Source of the DNA: Hyphococcus sp.
GTDB lineage: Bacteria > Pseudomonadota > Alphaproteobacteria > Caulobacterales > Parvularculaceae
Length of the DNA: 64,000 nucleotides
Direction of reading: 5' to 3'
NCBI GenBank assembly: GCA_021776335.1
Contig: JAJFGB010000004.1
Coordinates: forward strand, 248,001-312,000
Shown piece after piece: positions 50,734 through 60,281 of this stretch. Position numbers and translations under genes: made by a program. The notes beneath the pieces were generated by a model. That model was not told the origin of the DNA and did not search any database. It worked only from the letters and a program-made list of their open reading frames with translations. Numbering within the stretch: the stretch's first letter is position 1; every line of letters begins with the position of its first letter.

Positions 50734-51213
50734 ATGGGGCGGTTTATCATCCTTGTTTTGGCGCTGGCCGCCATTTGGCTGTTGTTGTCGGGCTATTTCG
50801 ACAAGCCGTTATTGCTCGGCTTTGGCGCCGCCTCTGTGCTTTTCGCTGCTTGGCTCGCTCACCGCGCCCATGTCCTTGACGATTCGGGTGTTCCCGGCGG
50901 GGTCTTTCCCGGCATTGTTGGCTATATGATCTGGCTCACCGTTGAAATCGGCAAGGCGAACATCATGGTGATGCGTCAGGCGCTTGCTGTTGAACCTAAA
51001 CTCTCGCCAAAACTTTTTACGGTGCCGAACCCACCGAAAACCAACCTCGGCAAAGTGATCTTTGCAAATTCCATCACCCTGACACCGGGAACGGTGAGCA
51101 TCGATCTTCGGGAAAATGAAATCCTTGTTCACGGGCTGACTGAAGACCTCTCCGATGTGGCAGGCATTAACGCCATGGGCGCTCGTGTCGCCAAGATCGA
51201 GCGGAGGCGCTGA
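50734..51213 (+). CDS. mrpE: Mrp-type antiporter subunit E
   Basis: 159 aa from ATG 50734; upstream frame to 50557 is unlike protein. Two N-terminal helices (FIILVLALAAIWLLLSGYF, then a second near residues 27-45) are followed by the MrpE pattern YMIWLTVEIGKANIMVMRQAL, and ANSITLTPGTVSIDLRENEILVHGL. MrpE is required for stability of the multi-subunit Na+(K+)/H+ antiporter in the inner membrane. It is the first gene of a nine-gene operon. Confidence 0.93.
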   Translation: MGRFIILVLALAAIWLLLSGYFDKPLLLGFGAASVLFAAWLAHRAHVLDDSGVPGGVFPGIVGYMIWLTVEIGKANIMVMRQALAVEPKLSPKLFTVPNPPKTNLGKVIFANSITLTPGTVSIDLRENEILVHGLTEDLSDVAGINAMGARVAKIERRR

Positions 51214-51217
51214 GCTG

Positions 51218-51535
51218 ATGTTTGCAACGGCGACCGCTGCTATTATTGCCGCCATGGTGCTGGCCCTTATCCGGGCTATTGCCGGTCCATCGCTTTACGA
51301 CCGCATCTTGGCCGGCAATTCTTTCGGCACCAAGACAGTGCTCCTGATCGGCGTTATGGGATTTTTGATGGGGCGCCCCGATTTTCTCGACATTGCGCTT
51401 TTATATGCGTTGATCAATTTCGCGGCGACCTTGGCGATTTTGCGCTTTTTCTCCTATCGCACCCCCAAGGGTAAACCGGCCGAACCCACCGACGGGCCGT
51501 TGACTGGGTCGATGAATGATGGAGGCGCGGCATGA
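51218..51535 (+). CDS. mrpF: Mrp-type antiporter subunit F
   Basis: 105 aa from ATG 51218. Three short hydrophobic helices with the MrpF pattern RAIAGPSLYDRILAGNSFGTKTVLLIGVMGFLMGR, then DIALLYALINFAATLAIL. Small membrane subunit that packs against the others; usual length ~90. The C-terminal ~20 residues (KPAEPTDGPLTGS) are an extra tail. Its stop overlaps the start of mrpG by four bases (ATGA). Confidence 0.92.
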   Translation: MFATATAAIIAAMVLALIRAIAGPSLYDRILAGNSFGTKTVLLIGVMGFLMGRPDFLDIALLYALINFAATLAILRFFSYRTPKGKPAEPTDGPLTGSMNDGGAA

Positions 51536-51873
51536 TCGACTGGGGTCTAGTGCGTGATCTCTTATCATGGGCGTTGTTCCTGACCGGCGGCGCTGCTGTC
51601 GTGATCGGCGCCGTTGGTATCGTGCGTTTTCCGGATTTTTTCACGCGCCTTCACGCTGCAGGCGTTACGGACACAGCAGGCGCCGAACTTATTATCTTCG
51701 CGATGATGCTTCAGGCGCCGAACTGGCTCGTAGTATCGAAGCTCGGTTTCATTGCCGTGTTCCTTGCGCTGACGTCGCCGGTGGCGACCCACGCGATCGC
51801 ACACGCAGCATGGATGGTTGGTTTTAAACCAATGCAGGGGCCTGATCTTCGCTATGATGGTGATGGCAAATGA
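51532..51873 (+). CDS. mrpG: Mrp-type antiporter subunit G
   Basis: 113 aa, three transmembrane helices. The family block GGAAVVIGAVGIVRFPDFFTRLHAAGVTDTAGAELI is clear, followed by LTSPVATHAIAHAAW. MrpG is a small membrane subunit of the antiporter assembly. Overlap with mrpF and with the next gene (four bases each) shows tight translational coupling. Confidence 0.93.
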   Translation: MIDWGLVRDLLSWALFLTGGAAVVIGAVGIVRFPDFFTRLHAAGVTDTAGAELIIFAMMLQAPNWLVVSKLGFIAVFLALTSPVATHAIAHAAWMVGFKPMQGPDLRYDGDGK

Positions 51874-52463
51874 ACGGTTTTCAGACGCATCTGGGACCGT
51901 TAGTGTTCCTTGACCTTTCATTGTTGACGATGTTGGTGCTTGTCGCCTTTGCGATGCTTCGGTCGCGGCATTTATTTGCGGTGGTCATGCTGTCGGGCAT
52001 TTATTCGCTTTTGTCAGCAGCTTTTTTTGTTTCGCTTGATGCCGTTGATGTCGCCTTTACCGAAGCCGCAGTTGGCGCAGGCATTTCCACCGTTTTAATG
52101 CTGGGCGGTATGCTGTTGACGGCGCGCCGTGAAAAACCCGTGACGCCAGGCCGTGCGCCGGTCGCGCTGGCGGTTGTTTTTGCCACGGGCGCGGCGCTCA
52201 TCTACGCAACCATCGACATGCCGGCCTTTGGCGACCCCAATGCGCCAGCAAACAGTTCCGTCGGGCAGCGATATGTTGAGGAAACGCCAAACGATATTGC
52301 GGTCCCGAACATCGTTACCGCGGTTCTGGCGAGCTATCGTGGGTTTGATACGCTGGGTGAGGTCATGGTGATTTTCACAGCGGGTGTGGCGGTTATTCTT
52401 CTTCTCGGTGTTGGTTCAGTGCGCGGTGGTACGCGCATTGTCGACAAGGATGAGGACGAATGA
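51870..52463 (+). CDS. Separate MrpA C-terminal-like subunit (DUF4040 plus MbhE-like)
   Basis: 197 aa, about five transmembrane helices. The first half fits DUF4040/MbhD (FAVVMLSGIYSLLSAAFFVSLDAVDVAFTEAAVGAG). The second half fits MbhE (PAFGDPNAPANSSVG, then VPNIVTAVLASYRGFDTLGE). In standard Mrp these segments are the C-terminus of MrpA; in this operon they are a free subunit, as in split Mrp-like modules of membrane-bound hydrogenases. It should sit between the antiporter-like subunits and MrpB. Overlaps both neighbours by ATGA. Confidence 0.9.
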   Translation: MNGFQTHLGPLVFLDLSLLTMLVLVAFAMLRSRHLFAVVMLSGIYSLLSAAFFVSLDAVDVAFTEAAVGAGISTVLMLGGMLLTARREKPVTPGRAPVALAVVFATGAALIYATIDMPAFGDPNAPANSSVGQRYVEETPNDIAVPNIVTAVLASYRGFDTLGEVMVIFTAGVAVILLLGVGSVRGGTRIVDKDEDE

Positions 52464-52903
52464 TGGAACGTTTGATCCTTAAGGTAACAACCAAAATTCT
52501 CTTTGCGCCAATCATCTTGTTTGCGCTTTACGTGCAGTTTCACGGGGATTACGGGCCCGGCGGCGGCTTTCAGGCCGGCGTTATTTTTGCGGTTGCCTTT
52601 ATTTTGCACGCCTTTTGTTTCGGGCTTGAGGAAACAAAAAAAGCGGCGCCGCAAAAGGCGCTGATCGTCGCTATGGTTCTCGGCCTGATGTTTTATGCGG
52701 GGACGGGGGTGGCGACGATGCTGCTGGGCGCCAATTTCCTTGGATATGATGCGATCGATCCGGCATCGACCCATCATGCCGGTCAGCATTATGGGATCTT
52801 GCTGGTTGAATGGGGCGTCGGCATGACGGTTGCGTCGACGATGCTGACAATTTTTTATCATTTCACAGGCCGTGAGCCTGATATCGATCAAGAAGATTGG
52901 TAG
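52460..52903 (+). CDS. mrpB: Mrp-type antiporter subunit B
   Basis: 147 aa, four transmembrane helices. The MnhB block KILFAPIILFALYVQFHG, DYGPGGGFQAGVIFAVAF is well preserved, followed by HHAGQHYGILLVEWGVGMTV. Structural and probably ion-path subunit. Four-base overlap with the DUF4040-like gene upstream; the mrpC ATG is three bases after its stop. Confidence 0.93.
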   Translation: MMERLILKVTTKILFAPIILFALYVQFHGDYGPGGGFQAGVIFAVAFILHAFCFGLEETKKAAPQKALIVAMVLGLMFYAGTGVATMLLGANFLGYDAIDPASTHHAGQHYGILLVEWGVGMTVASTMLTIFYHFTGREPDIDQEDW

Positions 52904-52905
52904 GC

Positions 52906-53718
52906 ATGGAACACTGGCTCGAATTCATTGCGGCGCGCTACAATTACTGGATCGTCATTGTTTTGATGATGACTGGCCTTTATGTGGTTTTTGCGCGCGG
53001 CAATCTTGTGAAGAAGATTGTTGGCCTCAATCTCTTTCAGACATCGGTATTTATTTTTTATATCACAATTGGAAAAATTGCTGGCGGTACTGCGCCGATC
53101 TATATCGGCGGTGAGCTGGATCACGGTGACACTGCCGGCCATGGCGATGTGGGTGATTCACACGGCGCAGAAGGCGCCGGTTTGCATGACGTCCTGGACG
53201 ATGCTGCCGGCGCAGCGACCCAGCCGATCAGCGATGGCAGCGCGGTCGATAGCCTTCATGCCAAAGTCGACAATTCGATTGGGGACCTTGCCGCCAATGA
53301 TCTTAAAACTATGCTCAAAGATCTGGATCCTGGAGAGGGCGGCGAAGTTGTCGCTTCCCTGCATGACGATGTGGGCAAGGTGGCAAACGACATGCTTGCC
53401 AAAACTCAACAGCCGGATGCACCCGCGTTTGACTTGACGGATGACGTCGCGCCCGAAACCATTGATCACGCTGCTGACATTGCCAATACGCTCGGCGATG
53501 CCGGACATGGGCTGGGCGAGGTGATTTACACCAACCCATTGCCGCATGTGCTGATTCTGACGGCGATCGTTGTGGGCGTTGCAACAACCGCGGTTGGTCT
53601 CGCTCTCGCCGTGCGCATTCGCGAAGCTTACGGCACGATCGAGGAAGACGAACTTGAAGTGCTCGACAATGTCGCGGAATTTGGCGAGGCAGCCGCCGTC
53701 GCGGGAGGGCATGCATGA
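52906..53718 (+). CDS. mrpC: Mrp-type antiporter subunit C with long periplasmic insertion
   Basis: 270 aa from ATG 52906 (TTG at 52897 would add three residues). Usual MrpC/NuoK proteins are about 110-130 aa with three helices. Here TM1 (~15-30), the cytoplasmic RGNLVKKIVG loop and TM2 (~43-58) are normal and end in GGTAPIYI. An insertion of about 137 residues (~70-206) follows, then the normal LPHVLILTAIVVGVATTAVGL helix. The insert is rich in Asp, Ala and Gly with eight His, starting ELDHGDTAGHGDVGDSHG. By the NuoK topology it faces the periplasm. It may bind cations or another protein. Confidence 0.9.
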   Translation: MEHWLEFIAARYNYWIVIVLMMTGLYVVFARGNLVKKIVGLNLFQTSVFIFYITIGKIAGGTAPIYIGGELDHGDTAGHGDVGDSHGAEGAGLHDVLDDAAGAATQPISDGSAVDSLHAKVDNSIGDLAANDLKTMLKDLDPGEGGEVVASLHDDVGKVANDMLAKTQQPDAPAFDLTDDVAPETIDHAADIANTLGDAGHGLGEVIYTNPLPHVLILTAIVVGVATTAVGLALAVRIREAYGTIEEDELEVLDNVAEFGEAAAVAGGHA

Positions 53719-55220
53719 TAATCGCATCCCAGCTTGCCGTTCTGCCGGTCATCACGCCGCTTGTTCTCGCGCCAATCACTTTGTTGCTGCCGAAAGGGCG
53801 TGCGTCCTGGGCGTGGGCGACACTCGTCAGCTGGCTGACCTTTGCCGCATGCATATTCGTGTTGAAAACGGTCGCCGAGACAGGCTTGATTTCCTATTAT
53901 CTTGGCGACTGGGCGCCGCCTTTGGGGATTGAATATCGCATCGATCTCGCCAATGCGCTGGTTTTGTTTCTTGTCTCGGGTATTGCGGCGGTTGTTTTTC
54001 CATTCGCGTACCGTTCCGTGGAACTTGAGGTTGATGAGCGTCAAACCCCGTATTTTTACGGCGCTTTGCTAATCTGCCTGACCGGTTTGTTGGGCGTCAC
54101 CATTACCGGTGATGCATTCAACGTCTTTGTGTTTTTGGAAATTTCATCGCTCTCGACCTATGCGTTGATCGCTATGGGCGCCCGCCGAGATCGGCGTGCG
54201 CTGACCGCGGCATTCAACTATCTCGTTATGGGGACGATTGGCGCGACGTTTTACGTTATCGGGATTGGCCTTCTCTATCAGGCGACTGGTACGCTCAACA
54301 TGGCTGACCTCCATGACCGCCTTGTGGGGCAGGATAATCGCATGGTGCAGGCGGGGTTTGCCTTCATTCTTGTGGGTGTCGGATTAAAACTGGCAATGTT
54401 CCCCTTACACCTCTGGTTGCCTAATGCTTATGCCTACGCGCCATCGGCGGTAACAGCATTCCTCGCGGCGACAGCAACCAAGGTTGCAGTTTATGTCCTG
54501 ATCCGGTTTTTCTATTCAATTTTCGGCTTCGATTTTGCGTTCATGGGTGCGGCTTTTACATACGTGCTTTTGCCCCTTGGTCTCGCAGGCATGTTCGTTG
54601 CTTCGCTGGTCGCCGTCTTTCAGGAAGACGTCAAACGCATGCTGGCCTATTCTTCGGTGGCGCAAATTGGCTATATGTTGCTTGGCCTTTCTTTCGCCAG
54701 CGCTGCAGGGCTGACGGCGACACTTATCCATATCTTTAACCATGCATTGATGAAGGGTGCGCTCTTTATGGCGGTCGCCTGCGTCGTGTTCCGTTGTGGT
54801 TCGCACTCTATTCACGCCTTTGCGGGGCTTTCCAAACGCATGCCTTACACGACCTGGGCGTTTATCCTGAGTGGATTGTCGTTGATTGGTGTGCCGTTGA
54901 CGGTTGGCTTTATCTCAAAGTGGTATCTTTTAGAGGCTGCCTTCGGCGCCGGGCACTGGTATGCAGGATTTTTGATCGTCGCCAGCTCATTGATTGCGCT
55001 CGTCTATATCGGGCGCATCGCGGAAGTCATGCTATTGCGCGAACCGGCGAGCGATGGAAAATACGTTATCGCGGCTAAGGACGCACCGCTCTCGATGTTG
55101 ATCCCCATGTGGGCGCTGGTCGCGGCCAACATCTATTTTGGCGTCAGGACAGAACTGACCGCCGGGCTCGCCGAGCGCGCTGCCGCCGCATTGATGACTT
55201 TTGCAGGAGGCGGGTCATGA
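53715..55220 (+). CDS. mrpD: Mrp-type antiporter subunit D (NuoN/M-like), first
   Basis: 501 aa polytopic membrane protein with about 14 helices of the proton-translocating NuoL/M/N family. Signatures: GDAFNVFVFLEISSLSTYALIAMG (with the conserved acidic residue), KLAMFPLHLWLPNAYAYAPSAV, FQEDVKRMLAYSSVAQIGYMLLGL and IFNHALMKGALFMA. This is the typical MrpD. It should provide one proton pathway. Overlaps mrpC and the next gene by ATGA. Confidence 0.94.
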   Translation: MIIASQLAVLPVITPLVLAPITLLLPKGRASWAWATLVSWLTFAACIFVLKTVAETGLISYYLGDWAPPLGIEYRIDLANALVLFLVSGIAAVVFPFAYRSVELEVDERQTPYFYGALLICLTGLLGVTITGDAFNVFVFLEISSLSTYALIAMGARRDRRALTAAFNYLVMGTIGATFYVIGIGLLYQATGTLNMADLHDRLVGQDNRMVQAGFAFILVGVGLKLAMFPLHLWLPNAYAYAPSAVTAFLAATATKVAVYVLIRFFYSIFGFDFAFMGAAFTYVLLPLGLAGMFVASLVAVFQEDVKRMLAYSSVAQIGYMLLGLSFASAAGLTATLIHIFNHALMKGALFMAVACVVFRCGSHSIHAFAGLSKRMPYTTWAFILSGLSLIGVPLTVGFISKWYLLEAAFGAGHWYAGFLIVASSLIALVYIGRIAEVMLLREPASDGKYVIAAKDAPLSMLIPMWALVAANIYFGVRTELTAGLAERAAAALMTFAGGGS

Positions 55221-56725
55221 TTTCTCCCGGCCTCGCCATTCCTCTTGCGCTCTCAGTTCCGCTGATTGGTTGCGTCCTGATCTGGCTCGCCAACAAATCG
55301 CCAAATTTGCGCGAAGGCGTAACGCTCGTTACGGGCGGCGTTCTTTTGTTTTTGGTTATTACGGTTTTTGCGGCGGTAAGCGAAGGTGACCGGCCGGACT
55401 TTCATTTGATTGAAGTAATCGACGGTTTGCCGATCGCATTTCAGGCTGAGCCCCTTGGCGCCATGTTTGCGCTCATTGCAAGCGGGCTGTGGCTTGTGAA
55501 TTCGGTTTACTCCATCGGCTATATGCGCAGCGGCAACGAGAGCAATCAAACGCGCTTTTATATGAGTTTTGCGGTCGCGATTTCCGCAGCCATGGGTGTT
55601 GCTTTCGCCGCCAATCTTTTTACGCTTTTCATCTTCTATGAAGTGTTGACGCTCTCAACGTTCCCGCTGGTAACCCATAAAGGTAATGACGCCGCACGAC
55701 GCGGCGGCCGGGTTTATCTTGGCGTTCTGATGGCGACATCGATCGGTCTCTTGCTGCCGGCGATCGTCTGGACTTATGCGATTACAGGGACGACGGAATT
55801 TGCTCCCGGTGGCATCATGAGCGCACATGCCGACGCTGTTGGCCCGCTCGCGGGCGTTTTGCTCGGCCTTTATGCGTTTGGTGTTGGCAAGGCGGCATTG
55901 ATGCCCGCGCATCCATGGCTCCCCAATGCCATGGTGGCGCCAACGCCTGTCTCGGCGTTCCTGCACGCTGTCGCCGTCGTCAAGGCGGGCGTCTTTTCCA
56001 TCCTCAAAATCGTTGTTTATATCTTCGGGATTGATTTTCTTCATGACACCGGCGCCGCAACGCCCTTTATGTGGATCGCAGCGGGCTCGATCCTGTTGGC
56101 GTCAGTCATTGCGATGAACAAGGACAATTTGAAAGCGCGGCTTGCCTATTCGACCGTTTCACAACTTTCTTATGTCACGCTCGGTGCGATGCTTGCGACA
56201 TCCATGGGGGTGATGGGCGGAGCCATGCAGATCGCCGCTCATGCGCTCGGCAAGATGACGCTCTTCATGTGCGCCGGCGCAATTTATGTGGCCCACCACA
56301 AGACGCTTATCTCGGAAATGAGGGGGCTTGGCCGGGTCATGCCCATTACGTTCGGCGCCTTTTTCATCGGCGCGATGTCGATTATAGGCCTGCCGCCGAT
56401 GGCTGGGTCCTGGCCGAAGTTCTTTTTAATGGTCGGTGCAGCGGATAACGGTCAGTTGGCAATTATAGCGGTTTTGATGATTTCGTCGATCCTCAACGTT
56501 ATCTATCTTCTGTCAATCCCGGTTCAGGCTTTTTATTTGAACCCCGCGGAAGAGGGTGAAAAACCAAAAGGCGCGGGCGGCGCCGCGATTCAATGGGGCG
56601 CGCTAAAAGAAGCGCCGATCCTCTGTCTCGCCCCGCCGATTGCCACGGCGCTCGGCGCCTTCCTGCTCTTTTTCTTTGCTGACCCGCTTTACAAATTTCT
56701 GACGCCGCTGATCGGAGGTGGGTGA
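55217..56725 (+). CDS. NuoL/M/N-like antiporter subunit, second
   Basis: 502 aa from ATG 55217, which overlaps the mrpD stop (ATGA). About 14 helices, with FTLFIFYEVLTLSTFPLVTHKGN, KAALMPAHPWLPNAMVAPTPVSAFLHAVAVVKAG and NKDNLKARLAYSTVSQLSYV. This shares the NuoL-type signature (LHAVAVVKAG) more than the NuoN one and is probably the N-terminal MrpA-type piece without its C-terminal extension. That completes a split MrpA, with the missing end at 51870-52463. Inference from motif order. Confidence 0.9.
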   Translation: MISPGLAIPLALSVPLIGCVLIWLANKSPNLREGVTLVTGGVLLFLVITVFAAVSEGDRPDFHLIEVIDGLPIAFQAEPLGAMFALIASGLWLVNSVYSIGYMRSGNESNQTRFYMSFAVAISAAMGVAFAANLFTLFIFYEVLTLSTFPLVTHKGNDAARRGGRVYLGVLMATSIGLLLPAIVWTYAITGTTEFAPGGIMSAHADAVGPLAGVLLGLYAFGVGKAALMPAHPWLPNAMVAPTPVSAFLHAVAVVKAGVFSILKIVVYIFGIDFLHDTGAATPFMWIAAGSILLASVIAMNKDNLKARLAYSTVSQLSYVTLGAMLATSMGVMGGAMQIAAHALGKMTLFMCAGAIYVAHHKTLISEMRGLGRVMPITFGAFFIGAMSIIGLPPMAGSWPKFFLMVGAADNGQLAIIAVLMISSILNVIYLLSIPVQAFYLNPAEEGEKPKGAGGAAIQWGALKEAPILCLAPPIATALGAFLLFFFADPLYKFLTPLIGGG

Positions 56726-57012
56726 TGTCTGATCATGATCAAAATCATGGAAAACCTGATGACGGGGGATGGGCGGACAACCCGATTTTTATCCGGGCAT
56801 TCCTCGGCCTGTTGATAATCTCCTGCATTGCAGCTGCGGCGGCGGGTTTGAACGCCGCGTGGCACAACCCGCATCCGCATTTTGCGATTGAGGGCGTCCC
56901 TGCATTTTTTGCGATTTACGGTTTTGGCGCCTTCGTGTTCATCGTGCTCGTCGGCCAGCATCTAAGAAAGCTGGTTGGCCGTAAAGAGGAGTATTATGAT
57001 GAGCGCGAGTAG
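56722..57012 (+). CDS. Small two-helix membrane protein of Mrp operon
   Basis: 96 aa, overlapping the previous stop by ATGA. N-terminal ~25 residues are polar (DHDQNHGKPDDGG) with two hydrophobic helices (FLGLLIISCIAAAAAGL, then FFAIYGFGAFVFIVLVGQHL) and a charged C-terminus RKEEYYDERE. No family recognised. It is placed between the antiporter-like subunits, so it is probably an accessory membrane subunit. The D/H-rich N-terminus mildly recalls the composition of the mrpC insertion. Confidence 0.75.
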   Translation: MMSDHDQNHGKPDDGGWADNPIFIRAFLGLLIISCIAAAAAGLNAAWHNPHPHFAIEGVPAFFAIYGFGAFVFIVLVGQHLRKLVGRKEEYYDERE

Positions 57013-58738
57013 CCTTTTGTCGGTTTTCCTCGACAACCCGGCTGTGATTCTCACGGTTGGCGCGCTGATGTGTGTTGCAACGCCGCGTCATCTGGCAGGC
57101 GTGATCATGTTGGTTGTGACGGCGATCTCAGCGGCAAAGCTCTATTCACTGGGGCTCGGTAATTATGGCGTGTTCGAACTTTTTGGCGAAGAGATTACCA
57201 CTATTCGCATCGATCCGCTGTCGCGTGTCTTTGCCGTCGTCTTTCACATCGCAATAGCGCTCAATGTTATCTATGCCTGGGGTCAGAAAGACCGTGCACA
57301 GAATTTTGCAACGCTCGCCTATCCCGCCGCTGCGCTTGGGGGCGTTCTGGCAGGTGATTTCATTACATTGTTTATCTGGTGGGAGATGGCGGCGATTACC
57401 AGCGTCTTTCTGGTTTGGGCGCCGGGAACGCGTGCGACCTATGTTTCCGGTATGCGCTATCTGGCGATCCAGGTGCTCTCCGGCGTGTTGTTGCTGGCTG
57501 GCGTCGTGCTTTTCTATCGCGAAACCGGATCGTTTGCCTTTGATGCGATTGGCTTGCGCGACGGCGATGGCGCAATCAAACTTGCGGCGTTGGTGATATT
57601 TCTTGCCTTCGGGATCAAGAGCGCGTTTCCGCTGTTGCACAACTGGGTGCAGGACGCTTATCCGAAATCAACGATCTCCGGGACGATTATCCTTTCGGTC
57701 TTTACGACGAAGCTTGCGGTTTATGCGCTGGCGCGCGGATTTGCAGGAACACCGGAGCTTATTTACATTGGCGCGGTGATGACGATCTTCCCGATCTTCT
57801 TTGCGCTCATTGAAAATGATCTGCGAAAAGTCCTGACCTACTCCATCAATAACCAGGTGGGGTTTATGATCGTCGGCATTGGTATTGGAACGGCGGCGTC
57901 GCTCAATGGCGCGGTCGGTTACGCCTTTTCCAACATTATTTTTGAGAGCCTTTTGTTTATGGCAGTCGGCGCTGCGATGTTCCGAACGGGAACGTCCAAG
58001 GCAACGGAACTTGGCGGGCTTTACAGGACCATGCCGTTGACCCTGACTTTTTGCATTATTGGAGCCCTTTCGATTTCAGCTTTTCCGGGCTTTGCGGGCT
58101 TCGTCACCAAGGGGCTTATTGTCGATGGCGCTGCGGGCTTTAACATCTGGATCTGGTTGACCCTGCTCTTTGCGTCTGCCGGTGTGCTTGAACATGCGGG
58201 CATCAAGATCCCCTATTTTACGTTTTTTGCTCATGACAGCGGCAAGCGCCCGAAAGAGGCGCCGGTTCCCATGCTCATCGCCATGGGTGTTGCCGCAATT
58301 CTGTCCATCGGTATCGGGGTCCATCCTGAACCGCTTTATGCGCTCTTGCCTGATCAGGAGCAGATCGCCGGTTACCATCCCTACAGCGCCTATCATATTA
58401 TCGAGCAGCTACAGCTTCTCCTTTGGGCCATACTCGCCTTTGCTGTGTTGATCCTGATTAAATGGTATCCGGCGGAAGTGCCTTCTACCAATCTCGACAC
58501 TGATTGGTTTTACCGGGTGCCGGGCAGGGCTTTTGTCACCTGGGCTGTCGGCGCTGCGCGTGTCATCTGGGTCGCCCTATGGGGGATTTTCTCGGGCCGC
58601 CTGCACGCCCTGATGACCCGCATTTACACGATGCACGGCCCTGAAGGGCAATTGGCGCGCAACTGGCCAATCGGCTTCATGGCGTTGTGGACGGCTGTGT
58701 TGCTTGGCTTCGTGTTGGTGTTGTCATTTCTCGCCTGA
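56996..58738 (+). CDS. NuoL/M/N-like antiporter subunit, third
   Basis: 580 aa from ATG 56996 (ATG 56999 alternative), with GAGGAG upstream. It overlaps the small membrane gene by 17 bases. About 14-16 helices with LAGDFITLFIWWEMAAITSVFLVWA, KSAFPLLHNWVQDAYPKSTISGTII, LIENDLRKVLTYSINNQVGFM and a C-terminal amphipathic region (YRVPGRAFVTWAVGAARVI). This third NuoM/N-like subunit makes the operon richer in antiporter modules than standard Mrp (two: A and D). It could be a second MrpD-like channel. Confidence 0.93.
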   Translation: MMSASSLLSVFLDNPAVILTVGALMCVATPRHLAGVIMLVVTAISAAKLYSLGLGNYGVFELFGEEITTIRIDPLSRVFAVVFHIAIALNVIYAWGQKDRAQNFATLAYPAAALGGVLAGDFITLFIWWEMAAITSVFLVWAPGTRATYVSGMRYLAIQVLSGVLLLAGVVLFYRETGSFAFDAIGLRDGDGAIKLAALVIFLAFGIKSAFPLLHNWVQDAYPKSTISGTIILSVFTTKLAVYALARGFAGTPELIYIGAVMTIFPIFFALIENDLRKVLTYSINNQVGFMIVGIGIGTAASLNGAVGYAFSNIIFESLLFMAVGAAMFRTGTSKATELGGLYRTMPLTLTFCIIGALSISAFPGFAGFVTKGLIVDGAAGFNIWIWLTLLFASAGVLEHAGIKIPYFTFFAHDSGKRPKEAPVPMLIAMGVAAILSIGIGVHPEPLYALLPDQEQIAGYHPYSAYHIIEQLQLLLWAILAFAVLILIKWYPAEVPSTNLDTDWFYRVPGRAFVTWAVGAARVIWVALWGIFSGRLHALMTRIYTMHGPEGQLARNWPIGFMALWTAVLLGFVLVLSFLA

Positions 58739-59179: not shown

Positions 59180-59301
59180 GCGAATGGAGATAAGCTGTTA
59201 GCGGCGCATGGACAAGCCGACCTCGAGCGGCTCGACGAAACCCGCTTGCTTTGATACATATAGTCTTTGATTTTCTGTCATTTTGTGCGGGGGCTCAAGC
59301 G

Positions 59302-59856
59302 ATGACCCTAATTGATGCGATCAAGGATGAGCATGACCGCCTCAGGAGCCGGCTGGTCCTGCTGAAACAAGAAATCGATGTTTGGACCCGCAACGGAGAG
59401 CCGGACTATGATTTGCTCCATCTATTGGCGCAGTATTTCATGAGATTCCCCGATGAAATCCATCACAAAAAAGAAGACCACATATATGACGCCCTTATGG
59501 ATAAGGGCGTTTTAGAAACAGAATATCTCTTAAGATTGAAATCCGAACACGAACAAATGGGCTTGCTTACGACGCAGTTTTCCGAGCATTTTGACGATCT
59601 TCTCGCCCATCATGTTTCGCCGAAATGGACGATGATTGATAAGGTCAAAAAGTTTATTGTAATGCAGGAACTGCACATGGCGGATGAGGAGTCACAATTC
59701 CTGCCGCTTGCGCGAAAAGAGCTCTCCGTAGACCGTCTCAATGAGATCGGCGCCGCGGCGCGAAAAGCGCTGATCAACGATGCAGCGCGAGAGTCGTTCC
59801 AAGAACTAGCCACCATTGATTCCGGAATTGAAAGCCATCTTGCGAAGAAAAAATAG
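59302..59856 (+). CDS. Hemerythrin HHE cation-binding domain protein
   Basis: 184 aa from ATG 59302; the frame extends to 59251 but the extra part is unlike the family. A four-helix bundle with iron-ligand candidates: DEHDRLRS, FMRFPDEIHHKKEDHIY, SEHEQM, and QELHMADEESQFLP. This is the HHE pattern that binds a di-iron centre; relatives sense or store oxygen, iron or respond to nitrosative stress. Soluble. Convergent with the YbjQ gene at 59875. Confidence 0.9.
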   Translation: MTLIDAIKDEHDRLRSRLVLLKQEIDVWTRNGEPDYDLLHLLAQYFMRFPDEIHHKKEDHIYDALMDKGVLETEYLLRLKSEHEQMGLLTTQFSEHFDDLLAHHVSPKWTMIDKVKKFIVMQELHMADEESQFLPLARKELSVDRLNEIGAAARKALINDAARESFQELATIDSGIESHLAKKK

Positions 59857-59874
59857 CGCGCGCGTGCGCGTTTC

Positions 59875-60195
59875 TCAAGCGAAAGCAACCGCTGTTCCGG
59901 AAACTGAGACCATCATCATTGACCCTTTTTCGCCGATGACCTCATAGTCGATGTCAACGCCAACGACAGCATCTGCGCCGAGCTGGCGGGCTTCTTCTTC
60001 AACTTCGCGAAGGGCAATCTGACGGGCTTCGCGCAGTGATTTTTCGTATGAGCCCGATCGACCACCAACAATGTCGCGAATGCCAGCGAACAAATCGCGA
60101 ATTATGTGCGCGCCAAGAATAGCTTCACCGGTAACAACGCCTTTGTATTCACGAACAGACTGCCCGTCGACAGTATGGGTTGTAGTGATGATCAT
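59875..60195 (-). CDS. YbjQ/UPF0145-family (heavy-metal-binding-like) protein
   Basis: 106 aa from ATG 60195; a longer start at 60225 lacks family match. Family blocks: [38 protein letters not shown], then [27 protein letters not shown] with a beta strand [12 protein letters not shown]. YbjQ forms a pentamer-like beta structure of unsettled function. No cysteine-rich motif. A strong terminator at 60282-60312 lies upstream. The start is preceded by GGGAAA. Confidence 0.9.
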
Positions 60196-60281
60196 TGGAG
60201 TTTCCCTATCAATTGTTGTGTGCACAGGGATTTGATATGGTGATGTTGCAGACCCATTACGAGGGTTTCGCGCTGATCAAT

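Follow-up and report, generated by a model that had tools for sequence, protein, structure and literature searches.

Why does an MrpC-type subunit gene of Hyphococcus sp. encode a protein in which a long, acidic, histidine-containing insert separates the second and third transmembrane helices (TM2 and TM3), how widely is that insert shared, and what might it do? We addressed these questions in a 64,000-nucleotide stretch of contig JAJFGB010000004.1 (the window, within which all coordinates are given) and in related genomes.

An MrpC-type subunit with a long TM2-TM3 loop

The open reading frame begins with ATG, contains no internal stop and encodes 270 aa; antisense open reading frames overlap it in the mechanical list. 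The genome carries a single match to this protein (E ≤ 0.001). The Pfam model Oxidored_q2 (PF00420) scores 76.2 bits (gathering score 26.1), its match being split into two stretches that share one reading frame, the better of which pairs residues 209-253 with profile positions 49-93. The NCBIfam model NF005624, 'cation:proton antiporter subunit C', scores 113.9 bits and exceeds its curated cut-off of 95, while the remaining 16 NCBIfam subunit models matched all fall below theirs. Three transmembrane helices, as characterise the family, were modelled with AlphaFold2 (residues 2-29, 34-58 and 211-241), and only the length departs from the ~110-140 aa that are usual, rather than defining, for such proteins (109-137 aa in solved members). 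Judged by its sequence, the protein is the C subunit of a Mrp/Mbh-type cation-proton antiporter-like complex, in agreement with the initial annotation.

The TM2-TM3 loop spans 144 residues, from behind the API that ends TM2 (residue 65) to NPLPH (residue 210). In relatives outside the order, the Planctomycetota and the Gemmatimonadota, the loop has 9-14 residues (24 distinct loops, drawn from the 80 top-ranking of at least 480 named loci and thus picked by likeness to the query rather than at random), so the insert amounts to ~130-135 residues. This is close to the ~137 residues first estimated, and the placement between TM2 and TM3 likewise held, as did the description as acidic and His-containing: the loop has 8 His and 30 Asp/Glu against 5 Lys/Arg. 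For a chance test, we took 14,784 overlapping 139-aa segments from 392 mechanically called genes in 412 kb of the same contig, the MrpC gene included. At least eight His occur in 1.7% of the segments and at most five Lys/Arg in 3.2%; both occur together in 4 of 8,783 hydrophilic segments, again counting those of the MrpC gene itself. Hydrophilic segments of the contig that are low in Lys/Arg (n = 331) average 2.6 His per 139 residues.

Searched against Pfam, the insert gave no match, and among 25 genus-level inserts five Pfam families matched one or two inserts weakly (best E 0.027). No PDB sequence matched up to E 1, and a genus profile of the insert found no second place in the rest of the genome up to E 10. 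Insertion of a domain from a known family was therefore rejected.

Gene cluster and neighbouring subunits

The gene lies in a cluster of ten tightly packed same-strand genes (50734-58738) with the order E-F-G-MbhD/E-B-C-D1-D2-small-D3 (Table 1), comprising three antiporter-like subunits and a sodium-type module. With E, F, G, B, C and D subunits together, the cluster is by gene content Mrp-type in the wide sense, a sense in which the accessible text of PMC5703873 counts the irregular group 3 as a Mrp-type antiporter. The fused large MrpA of canonical Mrp (groups 1-2) is absent; a separate MbhD/E-type protein and three antiporter-like subunits are present instead. Among the detected genes, the same order is found in 14 of 14 loci of the order (L190-L203), with the small protein detected in 12 and B not separate in four.

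Redox subunits (hydrogenase, Fe-S) were found neither among the ten cluster genes nor among the six flanking reading frames scanned, which are DUF2336, a ParA-like ATPase, one without a match, SufE, hemerythrin and YbjQ. Domain searches found no known metal genes among the ten. The hemerythrin-domain gene and the YbjQ gene, putatively heavy-metal-binding, occupy 59251-60225, at most 1.5 kb downstream of the cluster and on opposite strands to each other.

Table 1. Features of the locus, with residue numbers referring to the 270-aa MrpC protein
Feature	Position	Strand	Basis
mrpE-type subunit (MNHE)	50734-51213	+	Pfam
mrpF-type subunit	51221-51535	+	
mrpG-type subunit	51532-51873	+	Pfam
MbhD/MbhE-type subunit, equivalent of the MrpA C-terminal part	51870-52463	+	Pfam
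mrpB-type subunit	52460-52903	+	Pfam
mrpC/mbhG-type subunit	52906-53718	+	270-aa reading frame, ATG start, profile matches
TM2-TM3 loop, residues 66-209, 144 aa	53101-53532	+	strict-anchor loop count, alignments
His/Gly/Asp-rich first part of insert, residues 70-92 (ELDHGDTAGHGDVGDSHGAEGAG)	53113-53181	+	
Motif LHxKIxN...NDLK, residues 117-134; K120, N123, K134 invariant in 26/26	53254-53307	+	
Motif LH...KVANDML, residues 152-164; L152, H153, K158, N161 invariant in 26/26	53359-53397	+	
Possible degenerate last copy DHAADIANTLG, residues 187-197; LHGADAANAL-like in relatives	53464-53496	+	by eye
Antiporter-like subunit D1 (Proton_antipo_M)	53715-55220	+	Pfam
Antiporter-like subunit D2 (Proton_antipo_M, Proton_antipo_N)	55217-56725	+	Pfam
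96-aa protein, two hydrophobic stretches, HPHF between, YYDERE C-terminus	56722-57012	+	
Antiporter-like subunit D3 (Proton_antipo_M; NF009310 above cut-off)	56999-58738	+	Pfam, NCBIfam

The 96-aa protein, presumed to be a subunit of the complex, matched nothing in Pfam or NCBIfam. An end rich in Asp and His had been remarked on before, and the N-terminus is indeed of this kind (MSDHDQNHGKPDD); however, the K/R-rich C-terminal end and the two hydrophobic stretches put both ends probably in the cytoplasm, unlike the MrpC insert. Searched for in the 80 top-ranking of at least 480 named loci, the protein has homologues with a YYD-type C-terminus in 60, spread over three phyla. A His precedes the second hydrophobic segment in 59 of the 60, counted in a 26-residue stretch that was cut by rule and lies partly inside the first hydrophobic segment. 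In three planctomycetotal loci (L096, L100 and L109) the middle loop carries a His/Asp expansion of the SHDD/HDEHAHD type. Given the K/R at the C-terminus, this middle stretch would be periplasmic, on the same side as the MrpC insert, and two proteins of a single cluster can thus carry His/Asp expansions, which probably share one face.

Solved relatives and membrane side

In a Foldseek search MbsG (6u8y_G) ranked first (E 0.077), with no match passing E 0.001; in sequence searches with the short-loop family profile, too, 6u8y_G is the top solved relative (5e-26). Like MbsG and MbhG of the Pyrococcus furiosus MBS and MBH complexes (6u8y_G, 6cfw_G), the window protein is a three-helix subunit with a separate MbhD/MbhE-type partner, whereas those proteins have 114 and 117 aa and a short loop, and work in redox complexes. 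With MrpC of Bacillus, Anoxybacillus and Dietzia (7qru, 6z16, 7d3u; 109-137 aa) it shares the family and, by homology, the place in the complex, but those proteins lack a long loop and possess H37 and H40, a pair described as conserved in Mrp in the accessible text of PMC7419157. By eye, Thr46 and Phe49 occupy the two positions in our alignment. The adjacent residues 44-45 (FQ) are invariant in the 20 short-loop relatives aligned.

Arg27 of Bacillus MrpC, located near the cytosolic opening, aligns to the TM1-TM2 loop, and MrpC residues 66-82, which border the proposed periplasmic sodium exit, begin right after the TM2-TM3 loop in the alignment with solved relatives (structural positions as given in the accessible text of PMC9568556). 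By homology only, this would put the insert on the periplasmic side, next to the proposed Na+ exit, which is consistent with the periplasmic location originally suggested.

Distribution and origins of the long loop

The order was surveyed in 299 genomes (match threshold E 1e-8), 200 of which have a match. Some matches in families f3 and f4 are weak and single (1e-10 to 1e-12) and are probably other C-type subunits. Within the window's own family, coded f1 and, from locus titles and NCBI ranks, probably the Parvularculaceae, 59 of 60 genomes match, 56 of them with a two-part match and three with a single one (G001 and G011, where it lies at contig ends, and G260). The loop has 91-236 aa in all 56 distinct loops of this family, including those of the isolates Parvularcula mediterranea, P. 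oceani, Marinicaulis flavus and Aquisalinus flavus. Being universal among the Parvularculaceae examined, the long loop is a trait of the clade and not an oddity of one genome. Two other families of the order have loops of 32-129 aa (f2) and 18-139 aa (f5), giving a range of 18-236 aa within the order.

The main loop and spacing counts come from a strict-anchor set, which drops L154, L156 and L157 (32-aa loops with the anchor missing) and the partial genes L030 and L066. Of L027 and L051, where the gene contains unread bases, it drops the short second frame and counts the first. Tree labels, motif counts, the Cys count, per-group spacing, repeat DNAs and profile scores are based on a loose-anchor set, in which L013, L016, L018, L166 and L168 begin 10-18 residues early and L126 is omitted.

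Beyond the order, we surveyed 289 genomes of the class with a profile built from short-loop proteins (threshold E 1e-18), settings under which diverged long-loop genes could be missed. Eighty-six genomes passed, 84 from outside the order and two from within it. Each of the 84 outside matches is a single unsplit stretch of 315-366 bases, as short-loop MrpC gives, and both order matches are split. This comparison across the Alphaproteobacteria, suggested by the initial annotation, refutes the notion that most MrpC proteins share the unusual length.

Long His-rich loops at the same site are also present in the Planctomycetota (43-98 aa; six loci, five from Pirellulaceae and one labelled Planctomycetaceae) and the Gemmatimonadota (60-65 aa; two loci), each phylum also having a short-loop representative, of 21 and 11 aa respectively. 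On a tree of D1 from the window and 79 named loci (80 rows), the long loop corresponds to three changes with short-loop relatives in between. A single clade of all long loops is rejected (p 3.9e-9), as is one of the Parvularculaceae with the six Planctomycetota (p 0.0097), on what is a quick tree with some long branches, groups named after the loops were known and trait rows limited to the two Gemmatimonadota and six Planctomycetota. One old insert inherited by all phyla is ruled out by this quick tree with its post hoc groups, and His-bearing long loops seem, from these sequences, to have separate origins in three bacterial phyla.

Length and composition go together across the collection. At least three His are present in 80 of 85 distinct loops of at least 40 aa and in none of 25 loops shorter than 17 aa, and the long loops (≥40 aa) together hold 1738 Asp/Glu versus 320 Lys/Arg. 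Five loops of at least 40 aa have less than 3% His, among which L137 (55 aa) has none; a single His is present in each of L139, L144 and L150 (40-42 aa), and four f2 loops of 32 aa have 0-1.

Possible roles of the loop

The reading that we favour, and put forward tentatively, is that the insert acts as a tether that binds ions or protons at the periplasmic opening of the complex. A short periplasmic TM2-TM3 loop would have grown, in part at least through in-frame tandem duplication, into an acidic, His-rich and flexible arm. Hanging at the mouth of the ion path, which in solved relatives has MrpC next to the proposed Na+ exit, the arm could bind and release protons and/or cations through its alternating His and carboxylate groups, and so keep substrate ions near the complex, acting as a local buffer or as an antenna that collects them. 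The LH...KI.N and AND(L/M) motifs may pin it to the complex or to a periplasmic partner via short induced helices. In favour of this reading are the constancy of the long loop in the Parvularculaceae, its His and acid content, its recurrence in three phyla, the His-bearing 96-aa neighbour and the constraint on the insert; against it, His is dispensable to a long loop and varies in number and position, and tandem DNA repeats supply a mutational cause for the His spacing. As far as the accessible texts go, surface antennas have precedents in other systems (PMC9775063, PMC5986270), and it has been suggested that negative charge on the periplasmic side collects protons for the MrpA-N/D part (PMC9568556, PMC7419157). 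The accessible text of PMC7419157 also reports, for the solved Mrp of A. flavithermus, positive periplasmic charge over the small subunits, which its authors read as suiting cation release; an acidic arm runs against that design. The wider proposition is that the C subunit of this three-antiporter-module Mrp-like complex, and in some Planctomycetota the small two-helix neighbour as well, acquired a tethered, disordered His/carboxylate antenna for ions or protons at the periplasmic mouth independently in several lineages; it seems to us doubtful, if arguable.

Conservation within the insert bears on a second reading, that it mainly holds a subunit, a dimer mate or a periplasmic or outer-membrane protein, with the His and acidic residues as spacer. 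Seven insert residues are invariant in 26 genus proteins (K120, N123, K134, L152, H153, K158 and N161), and they belong to the motifs, not to the His-rich start, as docking would have it. The conserved pieces read LHxKIxN...NDLK and SLHxxP...KIANDxL. H153 is the only genus-invariant His, H118 being kept in 22 of 26 proteins and H94 in 23 of 25, and His number and position vary across the insert. Docking also gains from the enrichment of LHxxP (56 occurrences in 53 family loops versus 1.8 in shuffles) and KIxN (64 versus 1.1), counts that are inflated because the sequences are related. The strict motif LH(2-16)AN.[LIM] occurs in 26 of 40 family loops, with two or more copies in nine, so a regular four-copy repeat is only suggestive. 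Against docking, this strict pattern is absent from all f2 and f5 loops and from the five Planctomycetota/Gemmatimonadota loops checked, which still have His-rich arms. Of 28 family loops outside the genus profile of the insert, 13 score higher with it than the best of all shuffles (7.4 bits), again in favour of docking. The same is true of 6 of 29 non-family loops, so plain His-Gly-acid make-up accounts for part of the score; nor, as noted above, does the profile match elsewhere in the genome.

From a shallow alignment of 40 sequences, AlphaFold2 gave a mean pLDDT of 60.9 and a pTM of 0.35, with the transmembrane helices at about 70-88 and the insert mostly at 40-55, rising to 67 around residues 131-140. 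The only helices modelled in the insert are short (133-138, 162-166 and 189-203) and fall at the conserved motifs, which suits docking. Modelled alone, the insert reached a pLDDT of 54.9 and a pTM of 0.15. We read these models as showing a disordered arm that carries short motifs able to form helices; low pLDDT is what disorder would give and is not proof of it. On the evidence from both sides, we regard a mainly docking arm as unlikely.

A third reading is near-neutral, low-complexity growth: the periplasmic loop puts up with added length, repeats come and go by slippage, and the make-up, acidic with few Lys/Arg, is simply what can be tolerated outside the membrane. The span of loop lengths within one order and the low model confidence agree with it, as do the existing long loops without His. 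So do the tandem repeats found in 39 of 84 loop DNAs, many with a period of 12, 15 or 21 nt, although the window's own loop is not among them. Related genomes carry differing His-bearing tandem units in the same loop (HGEAIAD, HGAADAA, HQDG and HSEEG in L138, L166, L121 and L136), a natural series of repeat growth.

Selection on the insert weighs against neutral growth. In the 18 closest pairs, dN/dS is 0.09-0.51 in the insert and 0.03-0.20 in the flanks (by simple counting on a gapped alignment with partly saturated synonymous sites); together with the invariant residues, these sequence comparisons show the insert to be under purifying selection. Moreover, all 56 Parvularculaceae loops keep at least 91 aa, and His enrichment recurs in the same loop of separate lineages, compared with the 2.6 His per 139 residues of the 331 contig segments. 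The initial annotation had named disorder and dispensability together as what would weaken its case: the low model confidence does resemble disorder. We give neutral growth, too, a rather low probability.

His-rich loops of zinc transporters and zinc-binding proteins have a clustered HxH make-up. As far as they are described in the accessible texts, the ZIP, ZnuA and PA4063 loops resemble the insert as His-rich hydrophilic segments in or near a transporter; unlike their clustered HxH, the present loops have spaced His, and the families differ. In 27 loops, one per genus label, His gaps of 4-7 occur 111 times (54.5 expected from shuffles) and those of 3 or less 31 times (62.7 expected). Both effects appear in f1, f2 and f5; the Planctomycetota show only the excess at 4-7 (19 versus 20.3 expected for gaps of 3 or less), both from loose anchors, and the two gemmatimonadotal loops are too few to judge. 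The smallest His-His gap in the window's insert is at least 6 (by eye). A clustered zinc loop was rejected, as the His spacing overall, Planctomycetota excepted, goes against clustered HxH or HH. Much of this spacing is explicable by duplication of small units, repeats of 12, 15 and 21 nt giving periods of 4, 5 and 7 residues, and for that reason spacing was dropped as proof of selection.

A classical transition-metal loop, chelating zinc, nickel or copper for scavenging or for gating of the antiporter, is accordingly improbable in our estimation. It would fit the 3-20 His of each Parvularculaceae loop, the up to 17% His in Planctomycetota and the YbjQ and hemerythrin-domain genes just downstream, and it has a precedent in a periplasmic protein whose His-rich loops, disordered without metal, contribute to zinc binding (accessible text of PMC8561739). 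Opposed to it are the depletion of close His pairs (absent in Planctomycetota alone), the near lack of Cys (two in 55 Parvularculaceae loops) and the want of any known metal gene in the cluster.

An artefact in which a frameshift, mis-assembly or wrong start joins foreign sequence to MrpC, a concern raised at the outset for which no support was found, can be dismissed with near certainty, as the frame is intact and holds both match halves, the match is two-part in 56 of 60 family genomes, and all 56 family loops are long, isolates included.

Implications

Titles and abstracts in the literature searched, a set with most subscription papers outside it, describe no His-rich or long MrpC/NuoK loop, and those on Mrp in Parvularcula and on the gene arrangement do not describe the insert. 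What is new is an external part on a protein of a known family, an accessory part of a kind that the literature searched does not describe for the complex I/Mrp superfamily. According to the accessible text of PMC9568556, periplasmic ion uptake and release in Mrp and complex I relatives are debated, with rival Na+ and H+ routes. An arm on the subunit next to the proposed exit, which some relatives have and others lack and which comes in graded lengths, offers a series in which to test whether transport is limited by ion collection at the surface. A strongly conserved three-helix subunit evidently tolerates, and probably uses, a large external insertion, and the recurrence of such loops hints that there is some use in a movable, ion-binding arm next to the transport path.
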